A stretch of 64,000 bases of DNA from an uncultured Opitutia bacterium. GTDB taxonomy: Bacteria; Verrucomicrobiota; Verrucomicrobiia; Opitutales; Opitutaceae. The position numbers and the translations under genes were made by a program. Below the pieces are notes generated by a model. The model ran no database searches, was not told where the DNA came from, and saw only the letters and a program-made list of their open reading frames with translations. Shown here piece after piece: positions 12,801 through 60,465 of this stretch; positions within the stretch are counted from its first letter, which is position 1; every line of letters starts with the position of its first letter. The DNA is taken from assembly GCA_903896015.1 (NCBI GenBank), contig CAITWF010000009.1:1-64000 (forward strand), written 5' to 3'.

Positions 12801-13894
12801 TTTTCCCGACGGGCACCGCCCCTGCGATCACCGCGGCGCCGCTCTCCGAGACCGTCGTGCTGGGCAGCACCCTTGCACTCGGAGTGACCGCGAGCGGCAC
12901 GGGACCATTCACCTATCAGTGGAGTCAGAACGGCGTCGCACTCGCGGGCGCGACCGCGTCGACCTACACCGTCAGTGGGATTTCGGCGGCCACGACCGGC
13001 AACTACACGGTCACAATAACAAGTGCCAGCGGCACCGCCACGAGCGCGCCCGCCACCATCACCACTGCGGCCACGGGCGTGAGCCGGTTGACAAATCTAT
13101 CCGTACGCACCGTCGCCGGCACCGGTGCGCAGACACTCATCGTCGGTTTTGTCGTCAGCGGCACGCCCGGGAAAACGCTCCTCGTGCGCGGCATCGGTCC
13201 GGGCCTCGGCGCGTTCGGGATCACCGGCCTGCTCACCGATCCCGCCCTCTCGGTCCTCGGCCCAAATTCCTCGACGCTCGTCGCCGCGAGCAACGACAAC
13301 TGGAATATTGCCGATGCCTCCACGATGAGCGCCGTTGGCGCTTTTCCCCTCACGCAGGGCAGCTTGGACTCCGCCGTCGTAGCGACGCTCGCCGCTGGAA
13401 ACTATAGTGCAGTCGTCACCGGCAACGGTGGCAGCACCGGTCTCGCTCTCGCCGAAATTTACGACACGGCGCCCTCGGCCACGACGGGCGCGCGCCTCAT
13501 CAATCTCTCCACCCGCGCACAAGTCGGCACGGGCGGCGGCGTGCTCATCGCCGGCTTCACGATCACCGGCAACGTCGCCAAGACCGTGCTCATCCGCGGA
13601 GTCGGACCCGGTCTTGCCGCGGCACCATTCAACGTCACCGGCACGCTCGCCGATCCGCGGTTGGACGTCTTCAACGCCAGCAGCACGCTCGTGCAGAGCA
13701 ACGACGATTGGAGCGGCCTGCCCGCGCTCACGGCTGCCTTTGCGCAGGCGGGCGCATTCGCGCTGCCCAGCGCGACGAGCAAGGATGCCGCCGTGTTGAT
13801 CACATTGCCTCCCGGCAGCTACACCGCGCAGGTCAGCGGCGTCAACGCCACTACCGGCGTCGCACTGATCGAAATCTACGAAATCAGTCCGTGA
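9815..13894 (+). CDS. Secreted sedolisin (S53) protease with NHL propeller, Ig-like and tandem C-terminal domains
   Basis: The product has 1359 residues. After the signal peptide (1-27) comes a pro-kumamolisin activation domain (about 60-190). The S53 catalytic domain (about 205-560) has E285 and D289 (EATLDVQWA), oxyanion D374 (SGDNG) and nucleophile S486 (GGTSLASPTWA), plus a C-terminal calcium-site pattern (DIT.GGN...GPGYDLTTGIG). An Ig-like domain (about 570-668) is followed by six NHL repeats (about 670-995, each with GN.(F/Y)VAD and a closing VRKIT..GVV.T.AG), a second Ig-like domain (about 1000-1085) and two copies of the about 130-residue C-terminal domain. It should be a self-activating acid-type extracellular endopeptidase held at the surface by its C-terminal domains. 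Confidence 0.93.
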   Translation: MSQLHAPALRPLVLLASLLAAAGGRAAPAPAPGEARAVFAQSIAPVAPAAAGQSARPYISRTALQAGETGAIMPFEVALKMRNFDELEARLAHSEIISPDEMAARYLPLAADHDRVLRWLTAEGMEVTRTDVNHLAIFARASVADVARVFQTTFARVAASGVEFTSAISSPSVPATLAPAVRGIHGLQPHQRLRQRPHPQLLPLAGTGNSLPYYPAQIKQAYNAGSLTQTGAGQTIAIYALGFPKTTDLTTFWTTTGVAASLTNIQQVNVAGGPATNTSAGSLQEATLDVQWASALAPGATIRIYAASETDPVGDDELIQQILADLPTQPTLHQLSISFGLDENAADRDYIAIEAQYMANLVSAGVTVFAASGDNGALDNEVATVQTGFPASMPDVTAVGGTTLTLDTTGNVATEIAWGSLANPGTSGASGGGVSVIFNRPSWQKNIPGAPPGTMRLVPDVASVGDPATGGLLVYSGRSSTIGGTSLASPTWAAWCALINQARANAGKTPLGALNPRIYPLAGTAAFRDITSGGNSVFQAGPGYDLTTGIGVPNVAALLQATTTDTFAPVVEVQSGNRFTTTGQGATFYAIATASPTPTYLWQRLAAGTSTWTPLTTGANYAGTNSYALSVLGATAAMNGDQFQCIVSNALGSTTISPATLTVATSGVTTLAGWPGWSGFADGQGSAGRFNYTGSVRVGPDGTIYVADASNHTIRKITASGFVSTFAGAPGVAGSIDGAGSIARFNGPAGVAIDGAGNVFVADSQNFTVRKITPAGVVSTFAGSAGVEGHTDGTGSAASFWDPENLTIDAAGNLYIADGAGNSVRKITPAGVVTTLAGAAQSGTTNGTGTAARFNFLTGIAVDSAGNVYVGEYNNNAVRKITAAGVVTTLAGSPGTRTANVGFVDGTGTNARFNAPTGLAVDANGNVFVADSNNNAIREITPAGVVTTVAGLPTAPENIDGPLGVARFYGPADVAFDGNGVLYVADALNCTIRRIVFPTGTAPAITAAPLSETVVLGSTLALGVTASGTGPFTYQWSQNGVALAGATASTYTVSGISAATTGNYTVTITSASGTATSAPATITTAATGVSRLTNLSVRTVAGTGAQTLIVGFVVSGTPGKTLLVRGIGPGLGAFGITGLLTDPALSVLGPNSSTLVAASNDNWNIADASTMSAVGAFPLTQGSLDSAVVATLAAGNYSAVVTGNGGSTGLALAEIYDTAPSATTGARLINLSTRAQVGTGGGVLIAGFTITGNVAKTVLIRGVGPGLAAAPFNVTGTLADPRLDVFNASSTLVQSNDDWSGLPALTAAFAQAGAFALPSATSKDAAVLITLPPGSYTAQVSGVNATTGVALIEIYEISP

Positions 13895-46509: not shown

Positions 46510-49500
46510 CTACTCGGGCACGACGTAGAGTTCGATGAGGGCCGTGCCGGTCGTGTTGCCGACGCCGCTCACGACGGCCGAATAGGCGCCGGGAGAGAGA
46601 GTCGCGAGGATCACTGCATCGCGGCTGCCGCTCGGCAGCACAAACGCTCCGACCGCGCTGGCAGTCGCGGCGATCTCGTTCACATTCGGCGCACTCGACC
46701 AGTTGTCGTTCGCAGCGATAATCGTGCTGCCACGGTAGAGCGTCAGGGCGGGATCGGCGATCGCGTCAATGACACCAAACGAACCCAGCGTCGGCCCGAT
46801 CGCACGAATCAAGAGCCGCAACGTACCGCTCCCACCTATCACAAAACCGGGAATGAGAACGTTGTCGCCGGTGCCCACATAAGCGCGTGTTGAGGCATTG
46901 AGCACTGCGGCCGTGGTCGCCGTCGAGGCATCATAAACCTCAAGCAGCGCTACTCCGCTTCCCCCGTCGGGGGCCGTGAGCGGCGCGGTGTAGGCACCCG
47001 GCGCGAGTGCGGTGACGAGCGCGGCGTCTTTGCTGCCGGGTATGAGCGCGAACGCTCCGGTCGCAGTCATCGTGGCAGCATCGGCCGCGAGCCAGTTGTC
47101 ATTTGTCGCGATCGTTGTGCTGCCGCTGAAGAGTGAAAGTTTCGGATCGGCGAGCGTGCCGCTCAAACCGAACAAGCCGAGAGAAGGGCCAACCGCGCGA
47201 ATCAACATTGATCGGTTCGCGCTGCCACTCAGCACGAATCCGGGAATCGGTGTGCCGGCCACGCCGCCGACGAGCACCCGCGTAGCGACGTTGATCAGCC
47301 GCGCAGTGCCCGTCGTGCCGGGATCGTTGGTGGCGGCAACCGGGCCGCGGACTGCAAACACCGGATAATTCGACGCCATCACCTCGTAGCTGATGAGGCC
47401 TTGGGCGTTGCGCGTCGGGCCGTTGGCAGCGGGCACGGAGTTATTGACGCCGAACTCGACGAGCCACGCTTGGGTGGCGGTCGCGTTTCCGCTGGGCCGT
47501 AAGACAGTCGAGGTCCAATACGCCGTCGCGGGCGTAGTCGCGGTCGGGAAGAGCACGCGGTTGAGCGGAGCCAGCGCGCCGTTTTGGGTCGAGGCAGTCG
47601 CGAGCGTGAAATCCACGAGCGTTTGCAGTTCCTTGACGTTCGGCAGCCGCCAGTCGGCGTAGCCGGCGAGTGTGAGATTTTCAGCGTAGTCGAGCGCAGC
47701 GGTCCACGAACGCGCGGGCGCGGGCACCTGCGTCCACATCAAGCCGGTATCGAGATCGGTGATCGTGCCGTCGAGGTTGTTGAGATAGTTGTGGCCGTTA
47801 GTGGGCTTGGTGCCGCGGACATAACGCGCACTGTAGCGGAACGTGCCGCCGGCACTGAGCGTTTCGCTCTTTGGCTTCGGGCCCATGCCGCCACCAGCGT
47901 TGACGCACCAAACTTTCGTCGCGTCGCTGCCGTAGATGTCACTCGACCACCAGTATTCGGCGGCACCGGCGGGATTGCTCGGAAAATATTTCGTGTCGAG
48001 GGCAGCGGGGTTGCCGTTGTTGTGGTTCATGATCGAGAACAACTCGGTCGGCGTCGGCAGCCGCCAGTCGGTGTAGGCGCCGGTGGCGATCGCCGCCGCG
48101 CGACTGACGGCGGTGTCCCACGTCGACTCGCCGTTGTCGGTCTTCTGCCACATGAGACCGGTGACGTTGTCTGTGATCGTGCCGTCATTGTTGTCGGTGA
48201 AACTCTGTGGGTTGATGGTGTAGTCGGCATCCTGGCCTAACGTCGTGCCGGCTTTGATCGTCTGGCTGGTGTCGGGCAGCTTCAGCAGGCTCGGAGCGGC
48301 CATGCCATAGGTGGTGAGGCGATTGCCAGAGTTGTTATACGTCGTCGTGGTCGCGGAAATCGTGGGAAGGCGCCACGTGACGGTGACCGTCTTGGGGTTG
48401 GCGTTGCGATTGAGGCGCCAGCACTCGTCGTAGTTGGAGTTTCCGATTTGCACGCGCATGAGAAACTGATCCGCGGACGGCGTGCCGGTTGTCGATTCGG
48501 ACAGGTTGCCCGCGGCATCAGTGTCGAGTGCGACGGGATTTTTGAACGCGACGATCTTCGCGCCGTTAACCGGTTGGGCGGTGTAACCGCCGGTGCCGGA
48601 TTGCCGGATCGAAGCGACCTCGGGCTGGCCGTCGACCTGGCCGCCGTAGTTGACGACCGTGCCGTGAAAGGCCGTCGGCAAATACGGATTTTGCGGCCCC
48701 GTCGCGGCGCTGCCGATCGCGTGATAGTGGTAGCTCCAGGTGCCATGCGAATGACCGCCCTCGGTGTCGAGGGCGAGCCGCGCCGATCCGTCGGGCTCCG
48801 TGTAGCCGTAGATTGGGTAGCCGTCCAAGGCCCACGCGATCGGCTTGTCGATGCCCGTCACCGCCTGAAGATGCACGGGAGCGATGTGGTAGTGGTAGTC
48901 GTCCGCGAGTCCGCAGTGCCCGCCGAATTCATCAAGTTCGCCGATCTCGTAGGAAACACGGCCGGTGTTGTTGCGCGGATTAAAAATCGCGATGCCGTCG
49001 GCTGCGATCGCGATCGCGCCGCGCTGGAAATTTCCCACGGAGATCGGAATCGGCGAGATCGACGGCACGGGCACGAGCGGAAGGCGCCACACGTTGGGTT
49101 TGCCGAAACCGATCGAGGCGTTGTCCTTTTCGGGATTGGTAGTCGCGGCGAAGTAGGACGTGGGCAGCGGAAACTGCTGCTGCCATGAGGTGATGCCGAC
49201 CATCGGCGTCGGCACCAAAGCGGGATTAGGCACGTTGTCCGATTCGACATAGAATGTAGTCGTGTCCCAATAAAACCGCACGCGCGGCTCCATGGTGCCA
49301 AACGAAGCGGCCATGGTCGCGCCGTTGCCGGCGGGCGCCAAGGCGGCGATTGGTTTGAGGGCCGCTTGGGCGGATTGAGCCGCTTCGTATTCGGCGATCA
49401 TGGCGTCGAGCGCCGGGCTCCCGTGGGAGCCAGTGTGCGCCTGTGCCGTCAGGCCGAACAACCCGATGGTGAGCACCATCGACCAGTGCGCGCCGGGGCT

Positions 49501-49542
49501 GCGACAAAAATCCCCGGCCGGGTGGAAGTTGGTTTGCTTCAC
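46510..49542 (-). CDS. Exported YHYH protein with two DUF1566 (Lcl) repeats and tandem C-terminal domains
   Basis: The product has 1010 residues. After a signal peptide (about 1-36) comes a YHYH domain (about 70-330) with two YHYH motifs, in LADDYHYHIAP and WSYHYHAIGS. Two DUF1566/Lcl-type repeats follow (about 440-740), each with DGTITD..TGLMW and DWRLP. The C-terminus is the tandem about 130-residue domain (about 750-1010). The role of YHYH domains is unknown; the conserved His-Tyr motifs suggest metal binding. It is the last gene of its operon, overlapping the sigma factor gene by 4 nt. Confidence 0.92.
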   Translation of the reverse strand: MKQTNFHPAGDFCRSPGAHWSMVLTIGLFGLTAQAHTGSHGSPALDAMIAEYEAAQSAQAALKPIAALAPAGNGATMAASFGTMEPRVRFYWDTTTFYVESDNVPNPALVPTPMVGITSWQQQFPLPTSYFAATTNPEKDNASIGFGKPNVWRLPLVPVPSISPIPISVGNFQRGAIAIAADGIAIFNPRNNTGRVSYEIGELDEFGGHCGLADDYHYHIAPVHLQAVTGIDKPIAWALDGYPIYGYTEPDGSARLALDTEGGHSHGTWSYHYHAIGSAATGPQNPYLPTAFHGTVVNYGGQVDGQPEVASIRQSGTGGYTAQPVNGAKIVAFKNPVALDTDAAGNLSESTTGTPSADQFLMRVQIGNSNYDECWRLNRNANPKTVTVTWRLPTISATTTTYNNSGNRLTTYGMAAPSLLKLPDTSQTIKAGTTLGQDADYTINPQSFTDNNDGTITDNVTGLMWQKTDNGESTWDTAVSRAAAIATGAYTDWRLPTPTELFSIMNHNNGNPAALDTKYFPSNPAGAAEYWWSSDIYGSDATKVWCVNAGGGMGPKPKSETLSAGGTFRYSARYVRGTKPTNGHNYLNNLDGTITDLDTGLMWTQVPAPARSWTAALDYAENLTLAGYADWRLPNVKELQTLVDFTLATASTQNGALAPLNRVLFPTATTPATAYWTSTVLRPSGNATATQAWLVEFGVNNSVPAANGPTRNAQGLISYEVMASNYPVFAVRGPVAATNDPGTTGTARLINVATRVLVGGVAGTPIPGFVLSGSANRSMLIRAVGPSLGLFGLSGTLADPKLSLFSGSTTIATNDNWLAADAATMTATGAFALIPGSKDAALVTALAPGAYTAPLTAPDGGSGVALLEVYDASTATTAAVLNASTRAYVGTGDNVLIPGFVIGGSGTLRLLIRAIGPTLGSFGVIDAIADPALTLYRGSTIIAANDNWSSAPNVNEIAATASAVGAFVLPSGSRDAVILATLSPGAYSAVVSGVGNTTGTALIELYVVPE

Positions 49543-50180
49543 GTGGAAATGGAATGACGCAGCCGGATCGTTGGCTGATCGCTCAGCGCCTTTCGCACGC
49601 TCTGGCGCAGTTGCAGCCGCAGGCGGTGGAGCCGCAATTTAATCGCACCGATCGTCAATCCCTCGCGGCGCGAGATCTGGGCGTAGGAGTCGCCCTCGAT
49701 CAGGCGATCGAGGACGCGCCGGCTGATGGCGTCGCAATCACGCACCGCAATTCTCAGAGCTTCGTGAATTTCCCAGCTCCGGTCGTCGGTTGCCACGGTT
49801 TCTCTCTCAAACAGTTCGGACTCATCGCGGACGAGGACGGGGCGGCAGCGTGAGCGCCGCAACTGATCGAGTGCGGTGTTGCGGGCCATGGAGAACAACC
49901 AGTACTCAAACCGCGCCGGGTCGCGCAGGCTAGAGAAGCGGAGCACCAGCTTGATCGCGACGGTCTGCATGACGTCCTTCACGGTCTCCTCGTCGCGGAC
50001 GATCGGGCGCACAAATCCAGCGACCCGCCGCTCGTAAAGTCGGATGATCTTTCCCTGGGCGTCCACATCGCCCCGCCGCGCACGAACGATGAGGCACTGC
50101 AGGTCCGTTTCGCAGGAAGTTTCGGGCGGATGGCTGGGGCCCGCCGGGCCGGCAAAGCGCCCTTCAATATCGAAATTCAT
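49539..50180 (-). CDS. RNA polymerase sigma-70 family factor (ECF type) inside a structural operon
   Basis: The 213-residue product has region 2 (about 40-110: IIRLYERRVAGFVR, VMQTVAIKLVLRF, YWLFSMARNTALDQLRR) and region 4 (about 140-195: LIEGDSYAQISRREGLTIGAIKLRLHRL). It is a paralog of the sigma factor at 7662-8345. Its start overlaps the end of the metallophosphoesterase gene by 4 nt and its end overlaps the YHYH gene by 4 nt. No anti-sigma gene is present, so it may be controlled mainly at the level of expression. Confidence 0.88.
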   Translation of the reverse strand: MNFDIEGRFAGPAGPSHPPETSCETDLQCLIVRARRGDVDAQGKIIRLYERRVAGFVRPIVRDEETVKDVMQTVAIKLVLRFSSLRDPARFEYWLFSMARNTALDQLRRSRCRPVLVRDESELFERETVATDDRSWEIHEALRIAVRDCDAISRRVLDRLIEGDSYAQISRREGLTIGAIKLRLHRLRLQLRQSVRKALSDQPTIRLRHSIST

Positions 50181-52438
50181 GGCGAGGAAACCTCGTAGAT
50201 TTCAACGAGGCCGACGCCCGTCGTATTCCCGACACCGCTGACTTGCGCGCTGTAGGTACCCGGCGGCAACGTGACCAGCATCGCGGCGTCGCGCGAATTC
50301 GCGGGCAGGGCGAACGCGCCCACGGCGCTCGCTGCGCTCGCGATTTGGGCGGCATTGGCGGCGGTGCTCCAGTTGTCGTTTTGCTGAAGCGGGGAGCTGA
50401 CGCCCTGTTGGAACAGCGCGAGCTGCGGGTCGGCAAGGACACCGGGCACGCCGAATGCAGCGAGCGTCGGTCCGACTCCGCGGATGAGCAGTTGCTTCGG
50501 TGCCGTGCCCAGCACGACGAAGCCCGCGATCAACACCGCGCCACCCGTGCCGACCTGCGTGCGGGCGGAGACATTGATGAAACGCGCAGATGTTGCGGAA
50601 CTGCTCGCATCGTAGGCTTCGATCAGCGCGGTGCCCGCTGCGGCGTTCTTGCCCGAGACCTGCGCGGTGTAGGCGCCGGGCGACAGTGACGAGAGTAGCG
50701 CGGCGTCGCGGCCCCCGGCGGGAAACGCGAACGCGCCGACTTGCGCGGCCGCGGCCAAAATCTGCGTGACGTTGTTCGCGGCACCCCAGTCGTCGTTTGA
50801 GGCCAGCACGGCGTTGTTCGATGACCAGAGCGTGAGAACCGGATCAGCAAGCGTGCCGGTGACGCCGAACGCGTTCAGGGCGGGCCCGGAGCCGCGTAAC
50901 AGCACGGACAGCGGATCGCCGGAACTGACAACGAAGCCCGCAATCAGGGCGGCGTTGTCACCGCCTGCGGTCGATCGGACGGAGAGATTGACGAGGCGGC
51001 TCGTGCCCGTGGCGGAGGCAGCCGCGTTGATCGTGTAGCGATGCTGGACTGCGCCGTTTCCGATGCCCGCGCGGGTGTCGGTGGCGTTGACCCCACGGAC
51101 ATATTCCACCGTGGCTTGCGTCGGCGCGACCGTGACGCGCACGTGACCCGAGCTGGGATACATCACGCCGGTGCGGTAGCCGTAGGGCACAGCCGATGTG
51201 ATGTTCTGATTGGTGCGGCTGGGTTGCGGCACTTCCTGATAGACGAGTTGCGAGGCGCCGTTGGCGTCGAGCAAGTCCTGCTTTATGTAGAGGTGATCGT
51301 GGCCGTGGAAGACGGCGCTCACCTTGTTGGCGAGCAGCAGGTCCTGGATCGGCATCGCCCAGCCGGGGCGCTGGCTGGCGAAGCCGTTGGTGTCGTCGAG
51401 ATTCTTGCCGCCCCATTCGAAATAGGGTGCAAACTCCACGCCCCCTCGGGCGAGTGCATCGAAGCTACCTCCGACGAGGTGATGCATGAAGATGAATTTG
51501 AAGGTGGCCTTGCTCTGCGAGAGCGTTCGCGTGAGCCAGTCGTATTGCGCCTTGCCGAGCGTCCACGCCCATGGGTCGTTGGACTTTTTTACCGTCTGGT
51601 TGCTATACCAGAACGGATCGAGCGCAATGAAGAGGGCGTTGCCCCATTCGAACGAATAGTAGGCGTCGCGCACCGCGGTCGTATAGGGATCGGTTGCGGT
51701 GCTGCCGGAGTAAAAGGTGCCGGGTACGGGACACGGGAAATAGAGTTGGCGCATTTGGGTGCCCCACACGGCGGGATTGGCCTGCGGAGTCGTCGCGCTG
51801 AGCAGCCAGCCCAGCTCTGGGTCATGGTTGCCGCTGACGAGAAAGAGCGGAACGGACGCGCCGATTTGCGCAAAGCCGGTCGCGCGCACGACCTGCCGGC
51901 TTTTGGTGATATCGGAGAGCGCGAGCGTGTTGGTCTTCTCGTCCATGAACGTGTCGCCGAGGTCGATCAGGAAGTCGGGTTTGTCCGCGACGACGTTCGC
52001 CAACGTTGTCGTCCAGGCGGGCGGCTCGTTGTCTTGGTAGTGCGGGTCGGCCTCGATATCGAACGTGAAGGTTTTTCCGACGGCGCGCTGCGTTGAGAAA
52101 CTCGCCTCCGGTGCGTTGGAGAACGCCGTCGTGCCGGCGGTCCGGTGGCGCACGCGATAAAAATACGACGTGTCGGGCTGCAAGCCCGCGAGCGTAACCA
52201 CAGTAGGTGCACCGGCCGGCAAGGTCGTGAGTGCCGACTGGTTCGCGTAGGTGCCCGACTGCGTGCCGTAATCGACGATGATTTCGCGGGAGTCCGTTGA
52301 AAGCAGACTGACCGCGATCGAGCGATCTGTGGGACGGCCGAGCAGAACGTCGAAAGGCAGCGGATTCACATACTGGGCGCGGAGGGATAGGCTCAACGCG
52401 CCAAGAACGATGAAGGGTAAGGGTGAGCGGAGGTTCAT
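50177..52438 (-). CDS. Secreted metallophosphoesterase with tandem C-terminal domains
   Basis: The product has 753 residues from the ATG at 52438; a GTG at 52453 overlapping the previous stop is an alternative. A signal peptide (about 1-21) is followed by an Fn3-like purple-acid-phosphatase N-domain (about 25-125) and a metallophosphoesterase domain with EADPHYQD, IDLGDTFMD, VSGNHDPELG, FMHHLVGGS and FHGHDHLYI. Two C-terminal about 130-residue domains end the protein (from about 475). It presumably releases phosphate from an extracellular ester; the two related enzymes nearby suggest overlapping substrates. Confidence 0.92.
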   Translation of the reverse strand: MNLRSPLPFIVLGALSLSLRAQYVNPLPFDVLLGRPTDRSIAVSLLSTDSREIIVDYGTQSGTYANQSALTTLPAGAPTVVTLAGLQPDTSYFYRVRHRTAGTTAFSNAPEASFSTQRAVGKTFTFDIEADPHYQDNEPPAWTTTLANVVADKPDFLIDLGDTFMDEKTNTLALSDITKSRQVVRATGFAQIGASVPLFLVSGNHDPELGWLLSATTPQANPAVWGTQMRQLYFPCPVPGTFYSGSTATDPYTTAVRDAYYSFEWGNALFIALDPFWYSNQTVKKSNDPWAWTLGKAQYDWLTRTLSQSKATFKFIFMHHLVGGSFDALARGGVEFAPYFEWGGKNLDDTNGFASQRPGWAMPIQDLLLANKVSAVFHGHDHLYIKQDLLDANGASQLVYQEVPQPSRTNQNITSAVPYGYRTGVMYPSSGHVRVTVAPTQATVEYVRGVNATDTRAGIGNGAVQHRYTINAAASATGTSRLVNLSVRSTAGGDNAALIAGFVVSSGDPLSVLLRGSGPALNAFGVTGTLADPVLTLWSSNNAVLASNDDWGAANNVTQILAAAAQVGAFAFPAGGRDAALLSSLSPGAYTAQVSGKNAAAGTALIEAYDASSSATSARFINVSARTQVGTGGAVLIAGFVVLGTAPKQLLIRGVGPTLAAFGVPGVLADPQLALFQQGVSSPLQQNDNWSTAANAAQIASAASAVGAFALPANSRDAAMLVTLPPGTYSAQVSGVGNTTGVGLVEIYEVSSP

Positions 52439-52449
52439 GCGAAAAAATC

Positions 52450-54957
52450 TCACGGCACCTCGTAAATCTCCACGAGGGCTACACCAGTGCCGCCGCCAAC
52501 GCCGCTAACCTGTGCAGTGTAGGAGCCCGGATCGAGCGTCATGAGAATCGCGGAGTCGGGAGAGTTAGCCGGAATGGAAAACGCGCCGACTTGTGCAGCA
52601 GTGAGGCCGATTTGCGCGGCGTTGGGTGCCGTGAGCCAGCCGATGTTCTGTTGCAACTGGGCGGAGTCGCTGGAGCGGTAGAGCGAAAGCTGGGGTGCGG
52701 CGAGCACGCCGGTAACTCCGAACTGCGTCAGCCCGGGGCCGATCCCGCGGACCAGCACGGTTTTCGGCGCATCACCCTTGATCGTGAATCCTGCGATGAG
52801 GATGGAGGCGCCCGTGCCGACAAAGGTGCGGGCGGACATGTTGATGAAGCGCGCCGCAGTCGCCTGGGTGGAGGCATCGTAGGCCTCCATGAGCGCGATG
52901 CCCGTGGCGGCGCCCTTGCCGCTGATGACGGCAGAGTAGTTGCCGGCGGAAAGATTGGCGAGGATCGCGGAGTCGAGGGCGCCTTTCGCCAGTGCGAACG
53001 CGCCGACCTGCGCCGCCGTCGCGGCAGTCTGGTTCGAATTGGTCCCCTTGTCCCAGTCGTCGTTCGTTGCGACCGCGTTGCCCTTGCCATCATCCAGCGT
53101 GAGCACCGGGTCGGGCAGAACGCCGGTGACGCCAAACTGCGTGAGCCCAGGACCGACGCCCCGCACCAGCACCGCCAAGGGATCGCCCGGCCCGATCACG
53201 GCACCGACAATCAAGGTGCTGTTTCCCGTGCCGGCGGTTGACCGAACGGACATGTTCGAGAGGCGGCTGGTGCCGAGCGCGAGCGTCGCCGGGGCCGAGA
53301 GTACGCTGCCGGCTGAAGTCGAAACGAAGACGGTGTAGCTGCCGGCATCGGTTGTTTGCGCTTTTGCGATCCCGAGGACCGCCGTCGTCGCACCGGGAAT
53401 ATCACTGCCGTTGAATTTCCATTGATAGCTGAGCGGAAGTGAAGCGCTGGCGCTGACGCTGAAGGTCACCGCGGATCCCAGGGAAACGGTCTGGGAGTTG
53501 GGCTGCGTGGCGATCGATGGCGTCGGGCTCTGGGCGGCGCCGGCGATGTAGCTGAAAGCCACCGTGCCGTTGACGCGCGTGGGACTTTCATCCGCGGGCG
53601 GATAAGTGCGGACGTAATCAACCTTCACGCCGCTCGGCCCGACCGTGACGCGCGCATAACCAGAATTGGGAAACCGCTCGCCCGTCGCGTAGGCATCGGA
53701 ATTGAACAGCGAGTAGTTCGGATCAGCCGGGTTACCTAGCGCCTGGTAGGTCACGCCGTCGAGTTGCTGGTGAACAAAAATATGATCGTGGCCCTGAAAG
53801 AAAATCGTGACGTGATTCGCGGCCATCAACTGGTGGATCGGCAGGGCCCACGTCGGGCGGTTCTGCGCGAAGCCAGCTGTGCCGTTGGCGTTTTGACCGC
53901 CCCATTCGTATTTCAGCGCCACGTCGACGCCACCACGCTGCGTGCCCATGACGTGGTGGGCGAAGACGAATTTATACTTCGCCTTGCTCTGTTCGAGCGT
54001 GGTTTTCAGCCAGTTGTATTGCAGGTCGCCGTGGGTGACTTGCCAGATGTCGGGTCGCTTCGTGACGCTTCCCGTGCTGTCGAAGAGGTTCGTGTCAACG
54101 CACACTGGCGAGCCCCAATAGGGATCGAGGGTTACGAACAGGGCGTCGCCCCAGGTAAACGCAAAAAAATTCCGGAGCAGCCCGATGTAAGGAATCTGCT
54201 CGGTGTTGCCCGAGTAGAAATTGTCGGGCGCGGGCTGCGCGTAGTATGAGTTGCGGGCATTCTGCGCCCAGACGGCCACATTATTCGGGGTGCCATCCAG
54301 CAGATACCGCGCGGCATTCTCGTGGTTGCCGTTGACGAGAAAGACCGGGATCGTGCGGCCGATCAGATCGAGGTAGGGGCGCTGGATGAGGTAGCGGTTG
54401 ACGACCTGATCCTGCGTAATCGCGGAAGGATTGCTGGGATTAATCGTGTCGGTGCTGAAGTCGTCGCCGAGCGTCAGGTAGAAGTCCGGCGACGAGGCGT
54501 CCGCGGCGACCGTCTGGAGCGTGCGTGTGTAGTAGGCGGAGTTGAACATGTTGTTCACACGCTCCGGGTGCGAATCGCCCTGCACGCAAAAGGTGAACGT
54601 GCTGCCCGGCGGGCGCTGCGTCATGAACGAATACTCCGGCGTCGCATCGAACGTCGCCGCCCCCGGCGCCTGAAACCGCAGTCGGTAATAGTAGCGTGTG
54701 TTCGGCTTGAGCGCGGCAATGGTCTGCTCCTGCGGGACGTTGGCGGCGAGGTTGGCCGTCGCCGTCTGGGCGGTATAGCTCCCTGAAGTTGCGCCATATT
54801 CGAGATAGAACGTGAGCGCCGTGGGCGCCAGCACGTTGGCCGCAATAGTGACATCTGTGGGACGACCCAGCACGAGCGAGCCGGCGAACGTGGCGGCATG
54901 TGCGGTGGAAATTAACCAGGCGCAGCTACAGATGAGAATCAGGCGCGGGAAACGCAT
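52450..54957 (-). CDS. Secreted metallophosphoesterase with Ig-like and tandem C-terminal domains
   Basis: The 835-residue product has a signal peptide (about 1-21), an Fn3-like N-domain (about 22-115) and a phosphoesterase domain with VQGDSHPERVN, LTLGDDF, NGNHENA (GNHE instead of the usual GNHD), FAHHVMGT and FQGHDHIFVHQ. An Ig-like domain (about 480-560) and the tandem C-terminal domain (about 565-835) follow. It is the first gene of its operon. A 9-bp inverted repeat (54976-55020) lies immediately upstream. Confidence 0.92.
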   Translation of the reverse strand: MRFPRLILICSCAWLISTAHAATFAGSLVLGRPTDVTIAANVLAPTALTFYLEYGATSGSYTAQTATANLAANVPQEQTIAALKPNTRYYYRLRFQAPGAATFDATPEYSFMTQRPPGSTFTFCVQGDSHPERVNNMFNSAYYTRTLQTVAADASSPDFYLTLGDDFSTDTINPSNPSAITQDQVVNRYLIQRPYLDLIGRTIPVFLVNGNHENAARYLLDGTPNNVAVWAQNARNSYYAQPAPDNFYSGNTEQIPYIGLLRNFFAFTWGDALFVTLDPYWGSPVCVDTNLFDSTGSVTKRPDIWQVTHGDLQYNWLKTTLEQSKAKYKFVFAHHVMGTQRGGVDVALKYEWGGQNANGTAGFAQNRPTWALPIHQLMAANHVTIFFQGHDHIFVHQQLDGVTYQALGNPADPNYSLFNSDAYATGERFPNSGYARVTVGPSGVKVDYVRTYPPADESPTRVNGTVAFSYIAGAAQSPTPSIATQPNSQTVSLGSAVTFSVSASASLPLSYQWKFNGSDIPGATTAVLGIAKAQTTDAGSYTVFVSTSAGSVLSAPATLALGTSRLSNMSVRSTAGTGNSTLIVGAVIGPGDPLAVLVRGVGPGLTQFGVTGVLPDPVLTLDDGKGNAVATNDDWDKGTNSNQTAATAAQVGAFALAKGALDSAILANLSAGNYSAVISGKGAATGIALMEAYDASTQATAARFINMSARTFVGTGASILIAGFTIKGDAPKTVLVRGIGPGLTQFGVTGVLAAPQLSLYRSSDSAQLQQNIGWLTAPNAAQIGLTAAQVGAFSIPANSPDSAILMTLDPGSYTAQVSGVGGGTGVALVEIYEVP

Positions 54958-54975
54958 GGTCGAAGATACCGCTGG

Positions 54976-55020
54976 TTGATTAACAAAACCCGCGTTCTCC
55001 GATTAAAAATAGTTAATCAA
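54976..55020. promoter_or_regulatory. Inverted repeat upstream of a phosphoesterase operon
   Basis: TTGATTAAC (54976-54984) and GTTAATCAA (55012-55020) are perfect complements 27 bp apart, in an AT-rich patch 19-63 bp before the start codon at 54957. The sequence between them is AT-rich enough to hold a -10 element. The arms could be an operator for the adjacent OmpR-type regulator or another factor. Confidence 0.45.
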
Positions 55021-55181
55021 GTTTTCCGTTGTGCGACGTTTGTGCCGGCCGCCGGCAGGCGCGCAACTTTTGACTATGGCCGAACAAACCCAGACCAGAA
55101 GGTGTCGGCGTCCCGGACGGGGATTTTGATGCGACCTGTTCATGGCCGGGCTTACCGCACGCCGCCACTGCGCCCATGCGC

Positions 55182-55937
55182 TCATTTGAACGGGGCGTCA
55201 CTGATGTCGAGGTCGGGCTTCGTATTCCACCGCGGCTTCCATCCCGGCTTCTCCACCCGCGTGCGGAAGATCACAGTGTTGTCCAGATCGAGGTCGTCAC
55301 TCCAGATGAACTTCGCCCCTTTGAAATCCGCTTGATAGAAGGGCTCCTTCGGCCCGACCCGCTCCTCGGAGAACTCGGTGGCATTCGGCCACGTGCTGTC
55401 ATCGAAGTTTACCGCCCACCATCTGTCAGGGATCGGCGTAAGCTCCACCTTGGGATGCTGCACGTCGCGACCGAGCGGGCCCTTGAAAAAGTTCTTCGCT
55501 TTCCACGTGGCGTTCGAAACCGTCCCGTCGGCAAACTTGATGATAAAACCGCCATCACCGATGTGGTCGCCGTATTCGAGCCCGGTTTTCGGATCGGCGT
55601 TGTCCTTCGCCATCACGGCGATCGTCATCGGGTATTCCGGCAGAATGTCGAGCGAAACGACGTTGTGTGGAGTGAAGGGAATCGGATCCACTGCAGTCAA
55701 ACGGCCGTTGATGAAGAGCACGAACCAGTTGTCCGCATAGACGTTCACTTTGATCGTATCGGCCATCGTCGGCTTGATCAGGCCTTTGTCGTCGGGCCCA
55801 CCGCCGCCTTTGCCACGTGGCCCGCCCGGCCGTCGTGGTCCACCGGGTGGTCCGTCCTGCGCAACGACGACGAGGGCGAGGCCAAGCAGCAGGGAGAGAG
55901 ACAGAGCGAGGCGGGCAACAGAGTGGGATGGCTTCAT
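55182..55937 (-). CDS. Exported beta-rich protein of unknown function
   Basis: The product has 251 residues from the ATG at 55937. A signal peptide (about 1-25) is followed by a Gly/Pro/Arg-rich linker (about 27-48). The rest is beta-rich with VNVYADNWFVLFINGRL, FDDSTWPNATEF and DLDNTVIFRTRV, features of galactose-binding-like jelly rolls found in carbohydrate-associated proteins. It is the last gene of the upstream operon. It may bind sugars or the cell surface; the family is not firmly recognised. Confidence 0.75.
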   Translation of the reverse strand: MKPSHSVARLALSLSLLLGLALVVVAQDGPPGGPRRPGGPRGKGGGGPDDKGLIKPTMADTIKVNVYADNWFVLFINGRLTAVDPIPFTPHNVVSLDILPEYPMTIAVMAKDNADPKTGLEYGDHIGDGGFIIKFADGTVSNATWKAKNFFKGPLGRDVQHPKVELTPIPDRWWAVNFDDSTWPNATEFSEERVGPKEPFYQADFKGAKFIWSDDLDLDNTVIFRTRVEKPGWKPRWNTKPDLDISDAPFK

Positions 55938-55959
55938 GGGAGAATGGTCGGATATTTCG

Positions 55960-57420
55960 TTACCGCGCGGCATCCGCTTGCGGGCTCACACTGTAACTGT
56001 GGGTGACCGCCCCGGTTTTGCGCCTGCCATTCTCGGCCGCGGCTGGATAGGATCGGACGTATTCCACCAGCGCCCGATCGCGAGCGACGGTTACACGCAA
56101 AATTCCGGACGCGCCTTGGATCACGCCGCTCTTGTAGCCGTAGTCTTCGGTGCCGGGCTGGTTGTCTGCACGCTGATGCCCCGGCTGCGGCACGAGCTGG
56201 TAGATAACGCCGTCGCGCTCCTGCCGTGCATAAAAATGATCATGACCGTGAAACACCACCACACCGCCGCGCCGGGCCAGCAGTTCGTGGATCGGTGACG
56301 GCCAGCCGGGACGGTGCTGCGCAAACGTGTCGCGGCCATCGAGGTCGCGTCCACCCCATTCGAAAAATTGCGACGCCTCGGCGCCGCCCCGGCCCTCGCG
56401 CGTCTCACCGCCGACCAAGTTGTGCACGAAAACGAACGTGAACCTTGCATGGCTCGTCGCCAGCGTTCGCGCGAGCCAGTCGTATTGCGTGCGACCGAGC
56501 GATCGGCCCCAGTTGTCGCGATCGCGTTCATTGCTGAACCAATATGGGTCGAGCGCGACAAAAAGCGCGTCGCCCCATTCGAACGCGTAGAAATCTTCGA
56601 GCGGGCCCGCGCGCGGGTGCGGTGTCGAGTTGCCCGAGTAAAATCCGTCCGGCTCCGGATTCGGAAAATACTCTTTTCTCATTCCGTTCGCCCAAACCGC
56701 CATCGCCTCGCCGGCGCCCTTCGACGGTGACTCCCCGTCGTGATTGCCGAGCACGAGCAGTAGTGGAACCGCACGTGACTGCGTTCCGAAATAGTAGCGC
56801 TGCGCAAGATATTGCGGCAGGGCATCACGATAGTTGTTGCGCTTGTCCGTCATGAACGTGTCGCCGAGATCGATTTGAAAATCGGATTCAGTGGCCTGCG
56901 CGTTCGCCAGCGATTTTTGGTAAACCTCGGTGTCGGTGCCGAAGTCGAGATGGGAATCCGCCTGCACGCAGAAGGTGAAAGTCGCGCCCGGCGCCCGCGC
57001 GGTGAAAAACGTGCCGCCGGTTCCCGGCACCGCCGCCGCCTCGGTCGGTGCCGGACGAAGTTCATACGCATAGCGCGTGTTCGGCTTCAAGTTATTGAGC
57101 AAGAGGACGGCAGGCTGGCCCTCCTTGAACTCGCGCACAGGTAGCGCTGCCTTCAATTCGCCGTGCGTTTCGCCGCAGAAGACCGCGGCGCGAAAACGTT
57201 GGTAGGCCAGCAGGCTCAGTGTGACGGAGTTCGCTGTCGGGCGCGCGAGAAGCAAGTCGTAGGGATGGGCGGGCACCTCCGTGCGAAACGCGAGCGTGGG
57301 CATGCGACCGTTGCTTTCCACGTCCGGTCCGCCATCGCGGGGCCGTCGCGGCTGACCTTGCACTACCGGCGCCAAGGTCACGCATCCGACCAACACACTC
57401 CAAGCGACGCAGCGTTTCAT
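55960..57420 (-). CDS. Secreted metallophosphoesterase without the C-terminal tandem domain
   Basis: The 486-residue product has a signal peptide (about 1-22), an Fn3-like purple-acid-phosphatase N-domain (about 45-140), and a metallophosphoesterase domain with VQADSHLDFG, IDLGDTFMT, VLGNHDGE, FVHNLVGGE and FHGHDHFYA. It is paralogous to the two enzymes downstream but ends soon after the catalytic domain, so it may be free in the periplasm rather than surface-held. It overlaps the sulfatase gene by 4 nt. Confidence 0.92.
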   Translation of the reverse strand: MKRCVAWSVLVGCVTLAPVVQGQPRRPRDGGPDVESNGRMPTLAFRTEVPAHPYDLLLARPTANSVTLSLLAYQRFRAAVFCGETHGELKAALPVREFKEGQPAVLLLNNLKPNTRYAYELRPAPTEAAAVPGTGGTFFTARAPGATFTFCVQADSHLDFGTDTEVYQKSLANAQATESDFQIDLGDTFMTDKRNNYRDALPQYLAQRYYFGTQSRAVPLLLVLGNHDGESPSKGAGEAMAVWANGMRKEYFPNPEPDGFYSGNSTPHPRAGPLEDFYAFEWGDALFVALDPYWFSNERDRDNWGRSLGRTQYDWLARTLATSHARFTFVFVHNLVGGETREGRGGAEASQFFEWGGRDLDGRDTFAQHRPGWPSPIHELLARRGGVVVFHGHDHFYARQERDGVIYQLVPQPGHQRADNQPGTEDYGYKSGVIQGASGILRVTVARDRALVEYVRSYPAAAENGRRKTGAVTHSYSVSPQADAAR

Positions 57421-58820
57421 GGGCTGTCACGCCGCTTTCCCCCTTTGCCGCCGGCGCCGGGTCGATTGTCGGGCGCGATGCCAGCTTTGGTCGGATCGTA
57501 GTCGGGATTCACGATCGCGAGTTGCGCGTTCACAGCCCTGAGGTAGGCGATGAGGCGTGCGTCGAGCTCGGCGGTTTTCTCCGGCAGCTTTGCCGCGAGA
57601 TCGTGCTCTTCCGCTGCGTCGACCGCGAGATCGTAGAGCCGGCGTGTGCCCGTCTCGTCGACGCGGATCAATTTGTAGTGTTCGAGGATCAGCGCGGTCG
57701 CCGGGCCGAAGTTGCCGTGGTCGTAATGCGGAAAATGAAAGACGATCTCTTCACGCACGCGCTTCACGGCGCCGTGACCCGACGGGTCGCGCAGAATGCC
57801 GGCAAAACTCCCGCCCTCCACATCTTTGGCAGGTGCCGTCTGTAGGTGAGCGAGTTCCGCGATCGTCGGCAACCAGTCCATTGCGGTAACGGGAACGTGG
57901 GAGCACACCCCGGCTGCCACGCCGGGCCCGCGCACGAGGAACGGCACCCGCAAGCCGCCTTCTAGGACGAACCCTTTGCCGCCGCTCAGGGGTTCGTTGG
58001 CCGTCCGGCCCTGCGCTCCGTGGTCCGAGGTGTAGAGCACGTAGGTGTTGCCGGCGAGTCCGAGCCGGTCGAGCGCGTCGAGCAACTGGCCGACAGTTTG
58101 ATCGACGTCGGCCGCTTCGACCACTTCGGCGTCCTGCCGCGCCGCACCTTTCTGATCTTGATTCGGGTAGTGCGAGAGCTGGAGGTAAAATGGACGCTGC
58201 GCTCGCGCCATGCGCGTGATGAAATCGATTCCGCGTTCGGTCATCGCATGCGCTTGCTTGGGATTGGGATTCGCCACGATGTCAGGCCCGCCATTGTTGG
58301 TGGCGCCGTCGCTTTCGTCGAAGCCATGCTTCGCCGGGCTCACGCGGCCGAGGTGCCACTTGCCGAAATGCGCCGTCGCATAGCCCTCGTGCTTCAACAT
58401 CTCCGCCACGGTCGTCTCGCCCGTCGGCAATTCCAGCAACGGCTCCGGCGGAATCAGCGCGCTGCTCGTCCGCGAAAACGCGCTTTCGCGCCCGCCACCG
58501 ACGAACGTCATGTGCAGATACGCTGGGCTCACACCAGTCAGAAGCGCCGCGCGCGAAGGCGTACAACGCGGCGACGCCGCATAGCCGTCGGAAAACCGCA
58601 TGCCTTCACCGGCGAGGCGCTCCACCGCCGGAGTTTTTAAGATGCGGCTTTTGGAAGCCTGCACGCGATCATCCATCGCGACCGAGGTGTTGGACCAGCC
58701 CTGCGCCTCCGTCAGAATTACGACAAAATTTGGCGGAGGTATTTCCGCCGCCCCCAGCACAGCGCAACCCGCGATCGTAACCGCACCGGCCAACGCACCG
58801 AAGAAATTCTGCGTCTCCAT
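57417..58820 (-). CDS. Sulfatase of the formylglycine type, exported
   Basis: The product has about 467 residues from the ATG at 58820; a GTG at 58826 is also possible. An N-terminal signal contains an IAGC lipobox-like site. The formylglycine signature CTPSRAALLTG is present, as are TAHFGKWHLG, YTSDHGAQG and a C-terminal YDLAVDAAEEHDLA. The usual metal-binding Asp pair near the N-terminus (ILTDD.GW) reads ILTEAQGW here, a variant I associate with a subgroup of planctomycetal and verrucomicrobial sulfatases. It needs a formylglycine-generating enzyme, which is not in the window. Confidence 0.9.
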   Translation of the reverse strand: METQNFFGALAGAVTIAGCAVLGAAEIPPPNFVVILTEAQGWSNTSVAMDDRVQASKSRILKTPAVERLAGEGMRFSDGYAASPRCTPSRAALLTGVSPAYLHMTFVGGGRESAFSRTSSALIPPEPLLELPTGETTVAEMLKHEGYATAHFGKWHLGRVSPAKHGFDESDGATNNGGPDIVANPNPKQAHAMTERGIDFITRMARAQRPFYLQLSHYPNQDQKGAARQDAEVVEAADVDQTVGQLLDALDRLGLAGNTYVLYTSDHGAQGRTANEPLSGGKGFVLEGGLRVPFLVRGPGVAAGVCSHVPVTAMDWLPTIAELAHLQTAPAKDVEGGSFAGILRDPSGHGAVKRVREEIVFHFPHYDHGNFGPATALILEHYKLIRVDETGTRRLYDLAVDAAEEHDLAAKLPEKTAELDARLIAYLRAVNAQLAIVNPDYDPTKAGIAPDNRPGAGGKGGKRRDSP

Positions 58821-58827
58821 TCGCACG

Positions 58828-60465
58828 TCAGTGTCCGCGGTCGTCGGGCCGCGTGTAAGTCACCTTTAATTCCGCGCTGTCGAGCACGAGCCCGTTCATC
58901 GCCGCCAACAGCACGGCGCGACTCGTCTGCGCGGGAGGCACGGTGATCACCGGATGCGCCGACAGGGCGTAGACGGTGATCACGTAGGTCTTCGCGCCGG
59001 GCCCTTTCGAATGAGGCGGCGCATAGCCGGACCGGCGATCGATGCTGTTGTTACCGGCGATTCCGATTCGATGGACGTCTTTCGGCAGGGCATGCACGTC
59101 GGCCGGGATATCGTAGAGCGTCCAATACCATTTCGTGAGGCCCTCCGGATCGATGTGGTGCATGATCACGGCAAGACAGTTCGTGCCGGTGGGCGGACCG
59201 CTCCACTCGAGCGGCGGCGAAATGCTCGCGCCATCGCCGGTAAATTCGACCGGCAGCACGCCGTCCTTGCCGACGGCCGGACTGCGCAAAGTCATCGCCC
59301 CGCTGCGCGGCACGGCGATCTCCGGGGCCGGCGCCGCTTCCCGGGTGGGCCTTCGCGGCGGCGGTTCGCGTTCGGCCTGCGGCGGCCCGCGCCGCGCGTC
59401 GCCTTGATAGATATCCTCGCGCGTCGTGCCTTCTGTGGAAGCGAACTGAAATTTCCACGCGCCATCCCGTACCGGCGCATACTGCACTTTGCCGCCAGCT
59501 CGGTCGTTCACGGTGTAGTCGAGCGAGAAAGCCTTTTGATCAGGACTCACGACAAATCCGGTGATCGTCGCGCCGCGCAGCGGGGGTTGGGCGGGCCGCG
59601 GACTCCACGCGCGCGGCTGCGGATCAACCTGGCCCTCGAGTTCGACCACGGCGCCATGGAAACCGCCGTTCACGTAGGGATATTTCGTCGATGCATGATA
59701 GTGATAGCCGAGGCCCGCGGTCTCGTGGCCATCGAACGCATCGAGGTTCGTCGGTGCGCTGCCATCCGGTTCGGTGAGTCCGTAGATCGGATAACCATCG
59801 AGCGCGATCGCGATGGGCAAACCGCGTCCGAGCACGCTTTGCAGATGCAGCGGCGCGACGTGATAATGATAGTCGTCCGCCCGCCCGCAATGGCCGCCCC
59901 ATTGGTCGAGTTCGCCGATTTCCGCCGAGAGTTCGCCGCGGTTGTTCTGCGGGTTGAAGATCGGGATGCCGTTCGCCGCAATCGCGATCGCCCCGCGCAG
60001 GAATCGCCCCTTGATCGAAACCGGATGAGTCGAGGGTTCGGGATGCAGCGGAATGCGCCATGCGTTCACGCCGACATACGCCTGCGGCAGGGGCACCTGC
60101 TGCTGCCACGCGGTGATGCCGATCATCATGCCGTGCGCAGGTAAGCCATTCGACTCTACAAAAATAAATCGGTCCGTCACGCGCACGCGCACCGCCGGAG
60201 TAAAGCGTTCGAAAAGCTGCGCCGCCCGCGGCAATACCCCTCCGCCTCCACCCTCATCCGTTGCAACGATCAGCGATACGTCCGGCGGAGCAAATTCCCG
60301 CGCGAAGCGCAGCGCCGTCGTGTCGTGTTCGGCATTGCCGATCAGGTGCGCGCGACCGACTGGTGACGCAGCGGCGAACAACAGAATCGTCATCCATCGG
60401 TTGAATGGGTTTGCGGCTCGGCAGGCAGGGGCGCGTAGCATCCCGTCAGTAAACGCGGGCAGCAT
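58828..60465 (-). CDS. Exported YHYH-PEBP fusion protein
   Basis: The product has 545 residues; starts at 60465 or 60441 are both possible. A signal peptide (ending VGRA) is followed by a YHYH domain (about 70-310) with RADDYHYHVAPLHL and GYHYHASTKYPY, then a Pro/Arg-rich linker (about 345-390). The C-terminal YbhB/PEBP (Raf-kinase-inhibitor-like) domain (about 395-540) has VEFTGDGASISPPLEWSG and YTLYDIPA-like WYWTLYDIP. PEBP domains bind anionic ligands such as phosphate groups, which fits the phosphoesterase genes downstream. It is the first gene of the operon. Confidence 0.92.
   Translation of the reverse strand: MLPAFTDGMLRAPACRAANPFNRWMTILLFAAASPVGRAHLIGNAEHDTTALRFAREFAPPDVSLIVATDEGGGGGVLPRAAQLFERFTPAVRVRVTDRFIFVESNGLPAHGMMIGITAWQQQVPLPQAYVGVNAWRIPLHPEPSTHPVSIKGRFLRGAIAIAANGIPIFNPQNNRGELSAEIGELDQWGGHCGRADDYHYHVAPLHLQSVLGRGLPIAIALDGYPIYGLTEPDGSAPTNLDAFDGHETAGLGYHYHASTKYPYVNGGFHGAVVELEGQVDPQPRAWSPRPAQPPLRGATITGFVVSPDQKAFSLDYTVNDRAGGKVQYAPVRDGAWKFQFASTEGTTREDIYQGDARRGPPQAEREPPPRRPTREAAPAPEIAVPRSGAMTLRSPAVGKDGVLPVEFTGDGASISPPLEWSGPPTGTNCLAVIMHHIDPEGLTKWYWTLYDIPADVHALPKDVHRIGIAGNNSIDRRSGYAPPHSKGPGAKTYVITVYALSAHPVITVPPAQTSRAVLLAAMNGLVLDSAELKVTYTRPDDRGH

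Follow-up and report, generated by a model that had tools for sequence, protein, structure and literature searches.

We analysed a window of 64,000 nucleotides (the whole stretch of DNA under study) and found that four exported proteins encoded in it each carry two copies of a unit of about 130 residues. An HMM profile, built from the eight window copies and iterated once with their matches, recovered all eight with scores of 146-181 bits. In the S53 protease (9815-13894, forward strand), which a Pfam scan identified as a pro-kumamolisin protease that also has NHL and Ig domains, the units lie at 13079-13471 (score 146) and 13487-13888 (171), with the stop one residue further on. The other three proteins are encoded on the reverse strand. 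A YHYH/Lcl_C protein (46510-49542) has unit 1 at 46924-47307 (146) and unit 2 at 46516-46914 (163), again one residue from the stop. Two calcineurin-like metallophosphoesterases follow: P0003 (50177-52453), with units at 50603-51004 (160) and 50186-50590 (181; pLDDT 97 when modelled alone by AlphaFold), and P0004 (52450-54957), with units at 52870-53271 (157) and 52453-52857 (167), the latter reaching the stop. The distance from the second copy to the stop was 0-2 residues in all four proteins, and the three other window pairs were 52-61% identical to the P0003 pair. Ig matches in these proteins fell upstream of the units. The preliminary description had reported eight copies in four proteins, their landmark motifs and the nature of the passengers (an S53 protease, a YHYH protein and two phosphoesterases), and all of this was borne out. 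Its interval of 46510-54957 holds three of the four proteins and leaves out the S53 protein.

The reverse-strand region 46510-60465 of the window is occupied by a series of closely spaced or overlapping genes, several neighbours sharing 4 to 14 bases. Its first part encodes a YHYH-PBP protein, a sulfatase, a unit-free phosphoesterase and a 263-aa exported protein; the rest comprises the two unit-bearing phosphoesterases, a sigma-70 family gene and the unit-bearing YHYH protein. The sigma-70 family gene (49539-50180, reverse strand; region 2 and a weak region 4) overlaps both neighbours by 4 bases and is likely to be co-transcribed with the unit-bearing genes. Similar clusters are kept in related loci, some of them with a sigma gene.

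The window thus holds one unit-free phosphoesterase (55960-57420, reverse strand) together with two that bear the pair at the C-terminus. The unit-free paralogue is 40% identical to P0003, starts with a signal-peptide-like sequence and offers a natural comparison without the pair. In the metallophosphoesterase clusters of relatives, unit-free, N-terminal-pair and C-terminal-pair paralogues stand side by side, and in a tree of the family each of these three forms largely occupies its own clade. Since placement varies within one enzyme family, the module needs no free C-terminus. The nearest relative of P0003 by identity bears its pair at the N-terminus; we do not claim that P0003 derives from an enzyme with an N-terminal pair that later moved to the C-terminus, as the tree gives no firm placement.

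Occurrence, pairing and position of the unit

We searched the genome of origin (4.96 Mb in 123 contigs) with one unit and obtained 78 matches with E-values down to 1.5e-81, which excludes a chance origin of the likeness. All 78 places were fetched and re-scored with the unit HMM. Intact pairs numbered 34, of which 32 were found at the extreme C-terminus, 0-2 residues from the stop, and two at the N-terminus (contigs C108 and C78). Three proteins had a single unit, and the remaining matches were cut by contig ends or interrupted by stops. Unit copies with stop codons or frame changes were seen at three loci (L049, L060 and L061) and are possibly pseudogenes or assembly errors. N-terminal pairs in this genome are carried by DUF1800 proteins with CHRD domains (L138:1924-5277, reverse strand; L139:1196-4735, forward strand). 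A DUF1501 gene adjoins the former, and the neighbour of the latter looks alike.

Related loci gave a similar picture, with 110 pairs at the C-terminus and 16 elsewhere. Fourteen of the 16 sit directly behind the signal peptide, on phosphoesterases and on proteins that we labelled, by reading their sequences, as multicopper-oxidase-like and kelch-like; the other two (L081 and L089) lie mid-protein between folded regions. The terminal position, previously described as constant, is therefore mostly C-terminal, with N-terminal pairs as a second form. Nearly all intact unit-bearing proteins have a signal-peptide-like start, as called by a simple hydrophobicity and charge heuristic rather than by SignalP.

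Most unit-bearing proteins have exactly two units. In a tree of 323 units, first and second units were mostly separate: the best single split, which was 89% correct, gathered 131 second units and 5 first units. This separation suggests that the pair was fixed early and spread as one piece. Residues G23, R37, G40, P41, L43, D101 and E130 are present at 98-100% in both units.

The passengers are very diverse. In the genome of origin they include enzymes (S53, S8, M10 and M12 proteases, PhoD and calcineurin-type phosphatases, GH28, pectinesterase and a GH113-like protein), CotH, YHYH, cyclophilin, CHRD and DUF1800 proteins, repeat proteins (RCC1, NHL, DUF5122 and FG-GAP propellers) and bare stacks of Ig or Big_7 domains. 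What they have in common is export and not a substrate.

Of 387 sampled Verrucomicrobiota genomes, 22 have the unit, and 18 of these belong to the same family as the window. Among the 22, G134 gave a weak match that the pair model does not confirm. Positive relatives hold 1-91 tandem pairs each, and tandem pairs were absent from related genera. Two genomes from other families of the same class (G013 and G257) have 27 and 16 pairs, which indicates a patchy spread. When one genome per bacterial or archaeal species was searched, the best 80 matches fell in 76 loci; the titles of these name Opitutae, Opitutia, Opitutaceae, Opitutus or just Verrucomicrobia or Verrucomicrobiota. Searches of viral contigs and plasmids found no relative of the unit. 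We found no description of the module in the open-licence literature, and the tandem module, which is real and genome-wide, appears to be hitherto undescribed.

Predicted fold and kinship with PPC domains

The fold prediction suggested earlier was run with AlphaFold. The pair, together with 73 natural pairs, gave a pLDDT of 95.9 and a pTM of 0.91, and a single unit gave a pLDDT of 97.0. In the model, the pair is predicted to form two jelly-roll domains with a defined mutual position. The top Foldseek match of the pair was the ColG tandem collagen-binding domain (5iku, E 1.6e-8), with a poor global superposition; that of the single unit was the PPC domain of Bacillus anthracis collagenase (5sv5, E 8.9e-5, TM 0.69 by target). 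VIA comparisons of the single unit gave Z 9.0 with 5sv5 (92 residues, rmsd 2.4), 9.4 with the Tk-SP jelly roll (98 residues, rmsd 3.5), 9.2 with ColG s3b (92 residues, rmsd 2.7) and 9.1 with a periplasmic lysozyme inhibitor (93 residues, rmsd 2.3); as differences in Z below 1 count as ties, structure by itself does not settle the kinship. A viral structure library returned generic beta folds as its sole matches.

We used profile comparison as a further line of evidence. A PPC profile of 28 sequences aligned with the unit profile in hhalign at probability 93 (E 2.5e-7, score 44, 56 columns), placing the DP.L.L....ND stretch of the unit on the PPC core; relative to PPC, the unit carries an insertion of about 22 residues. 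One hundred column shuffles scored at most 18.8 and a reversed profile 12.4. A narrower set of 15 PPC sequences matched weakly (probability 8). The Pfam PPC model (PF04151) matched none of the four window proteins and only one of 63 units, at E 0.03. Canonical PPC domains are also present in unit-bearing genomes, sometimes apparently within the same protein.

Searches of Pfam, NCBIfam and PDB sequences with the unit gave nothing credible. The best Fn3 match over the units was 0.21, in one of 63 units, and the CWB2 and SLH models of Pfam matched none of the 63. The statement that the unit is not an Ig, Fn3 or PEP-CTERM motif was thus upheld, none of these models matching it. On whether it belongs to a known domain the answer is divided: Pfam and NCBIfam hold no matching model, and the unit nevertheless falls within the known superfamily of PPC-type jelly rolls. 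The unit is a divergent, tandem relative of these jelly rolls, neither a member of PF04151 nor a new fold, as judged from the predicted structure and the profile alignment. With no Pfam or NCBIfam model for a module that stands on up to 91 exported proteins per Opitutaceae genome, a large part of the surface proteome of this family is unannotated. The module allows putative surface proteins to be listed directly, in a phylum whose surface biology is poorly known.

Possible roles of the pair

We favour, by analogy and with about even confidence, the reading that the pair is a terminus-independent, non-covalent surface-retention module that would work in the manner of SLH or CWB2 repeats. A matched tandem pair would be attached at a terminus of Sec-exported proteins, in most cases at the C-terminus and in some right after the signal peptide, and would keep very different passengers, by non-covalent binding, on the cell surface or within the extracellular matrix of the cell itself. 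We infer that the pair binds a ligand in the cell surface or matrix and that retention is its purpose. The tandem repeats, their placement close to either terminus, the dozens of unrelated passengers with signal-peptide-like starts and the use of the module throughout a restricted clade were all observed computationally, and together they make up the pattern of a surface anchor. Cleavage after secretion is a frequent fate of published PPC domains (PMC3327674) and would be ill suited to an anchor. A scan of the neighbours of the loci revealed no partner gene that is dedicated to the unit and recurs at many of them. A sensor-kinase cluster near 11 loci was considered as a partner and set aside as an apparent chance gathering of a large family. 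A sorting, anchoring or adhesion role had been proposed from the window; anchoring or adhesion is now the best-supported part of that proposal, and strictly C-terminal sorting is unlikely, given the N-terminal pairs.

The neighbourhood of a GspD-like secretin deserves separate description. At four loci (L193:11513-16313, L035:757-8949, L242 and L239) a secretin operon consists of a GspL_C-like gene, the secretin and then a giant pair-bearing protein. These giant proteins have 1154-4238 aa, and those that were scanned contain Big_7 repeats. Most unit-negative genomes have no gene of giant size in the position that follows the secretin; in one genome (G099, L234:765-4640, reverse strand of the locus) this position is taken by a large Ig-like protein in which no units were detected.

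The strongest alternative is that the pair folds into an export domain, which a type II-like secretion system would recognise and pass folded through the secretin. Its position in the chain would be free, the folded structure being read and not a terminal peptide. We regard this as possible though clearly not probable. A giant unit-bearing gene stands directly behind the secretin in six checked genomes (G000, G283, G160, G010, G018 and G091) and in four further MAG loci (L116, L120, L123 and L130), and coordinates suggest the same arrangement in G271 and G375. In the genome of origin the adjacency occurs twice, with two different secretins: the second (contig C109, L038:6112-9054, reverse strand) is encoded in a frame of 981 aa, shares about 32% identity with the first type and has a unit-bearing frame 4 bases downstream. 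The gene upstream of the secretin weakly matches GspL_C, with a score below the cut-off. The repeated adjacency also fits an export role. However, secretin orthologues are also found in unit-negative genomes (in the eight checked, the secretin came without a unit gene), and the adjacency may reflect one inherited gene cluster. Five unit-positive genomes (G310, G348, G351, G013 and G257) gave weak secretin matches, about 28-35% identical; some unit-positive genomes thus lack this orthologue, and the secretin is not the general partner of all units. The unit-free paralogue at 55960-57420, moreover, has a signal-peptide-like start too. A type II export route for the unit-bearing proteins is possible. 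An undescribed surface-display route of Opitutaceae, with the pair as the mark of its substrates, is in our view rather unlikely; in such a route a folded, terminus-independent tag would lead to export through the secretin and then to retention at the surface, independently of exosortase and T9SS.

The pair could also serve to bind substrates and would then direct extracellular enzymes to insoluble protein or polysaccharide, in the manner of PPC and collagen-binding domains. The nearest solved folds are the ColG collagen-binding domains and the Bacillus collagenase PPC domain, and several passengers are hydrolases. PPC domains in proteases bind protein substrates, those of protease E495 among them, and the E495 PPC domain needs four conserved residues for this (PMC3327674). 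A binding role for the unit therefore has precedent, and a sorting role need not be assumed. On the other side, many passengers have no plausible common substrate, some being just Ig stacks or propellers, which favours location over substrate binding, and the none-or-many pattern across genomes resembles that of a general location tag. We consider substrate binding improbable as the main role.

A stabilising cap, possibly calcium-bound, is doubtful in the extreme. The Tk-SP jelly roll, a top structural match (VIA Z 9.4), is calcium-binding. From the sequence, the invariant D101 and E130 and the conserved D54 and D72 could bind metal; D101 and E130 may equally be structural. A role in thermostability was described for the PPC domains of protease MCP-03 (as cited in PMC3327674). 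Against this, a cap adapted to a single enzyme would neither swap among so many folds nor change ends.

A last alternative is that the pair acts at the C-terminus as a sorting signal, like those of the T9SS-CTD or exosortase type. Exosortase was found in 38 of 40 genomes irrespective of units, and two genomes with 18 and 20 pairs (G310 and G351) had neither an exosortase match nor a PEP-CTERM match. SprA matched none of the 40 genomes, and no control genome either. Phosphoesterase homologues that were read in unit-negative genomes (L173, L174 and L184) had no PEP-CTERM end. The idea that units replace PEP-CTERM was dropped, as both co-occur and each is also found without the other. Most pairs do end exactly at the C-terminus, but N-terminal pairs (14 in relatives and two in the genome of origin) largely refute such a signal, unless these forms reach their place by a different path. 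The unit also shows no link to exosortase or PEP-CTERM, and we hold this reading to be the least credible.

Comparison with known systems

The T9SS CTD and PEP-CTERM resemble the pair in being C-terminal tags common to many unrelated exported proteins of a genome. The unit differs from both in that it also occurs at the N-terminus and in genomes without exosortase. PEP-CTERM consists of a short PEP motif, a TM helix and a basic end, whereas the units are predicted to end in a beta strand.

Closer parallels are found among the non-covalent anchors of surface proteins, and here the likeness lies in the way of working. SLH domains occur in tandem and anchor unrelated exoproteins non-covalently to the surface (PMC4973711). 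They differ in having another fold and three repeats and in binding a pyruvylated wall polymer, and no sequence relation to the unit was seen. Three non-identical CWB2 repeats are found at the N- or C-terminus of 29 C. difficile proteins, and anchoring requires all three (PMC4973711). By analogy, CWB2 and the pair share tandem non-identical repeats, placement at either terminus and many unrelated surface proteins. The separate clades of first and second units suggest that the pair is one old module, comparable to the non-interchangeable CWB2 repeats (PMC4973711). CWB2 belongs to another protein family, however, with three repeats, a Gram-positive wall and PSII as its ligand, and a ligand of the unit pair is proposed here by inference.

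In structure the comparison is with PPC (PF04151) and ColG s3a/s3b, and the predicted jelly-roll fold and the PPC relationship are both results of computed models. The unit shares with these domains the jelly-roll fold, the DP.L.L...ND core and the end strand, and they too can stand in tandem and at the C-terminus of secreted enzymes. Compared with PPC, the unit is longer by about 22 residues, which include a helix and the W..GAF motif, and it has a conserved N-terminal half with LLIRG.GP.L. It is also near-strictly paired, has a much wider range of passengers and can be placed at the N-terminus. The PPC-type fold thus appears here as a genome-wide end module, beyond its part as an accessory of proteases.
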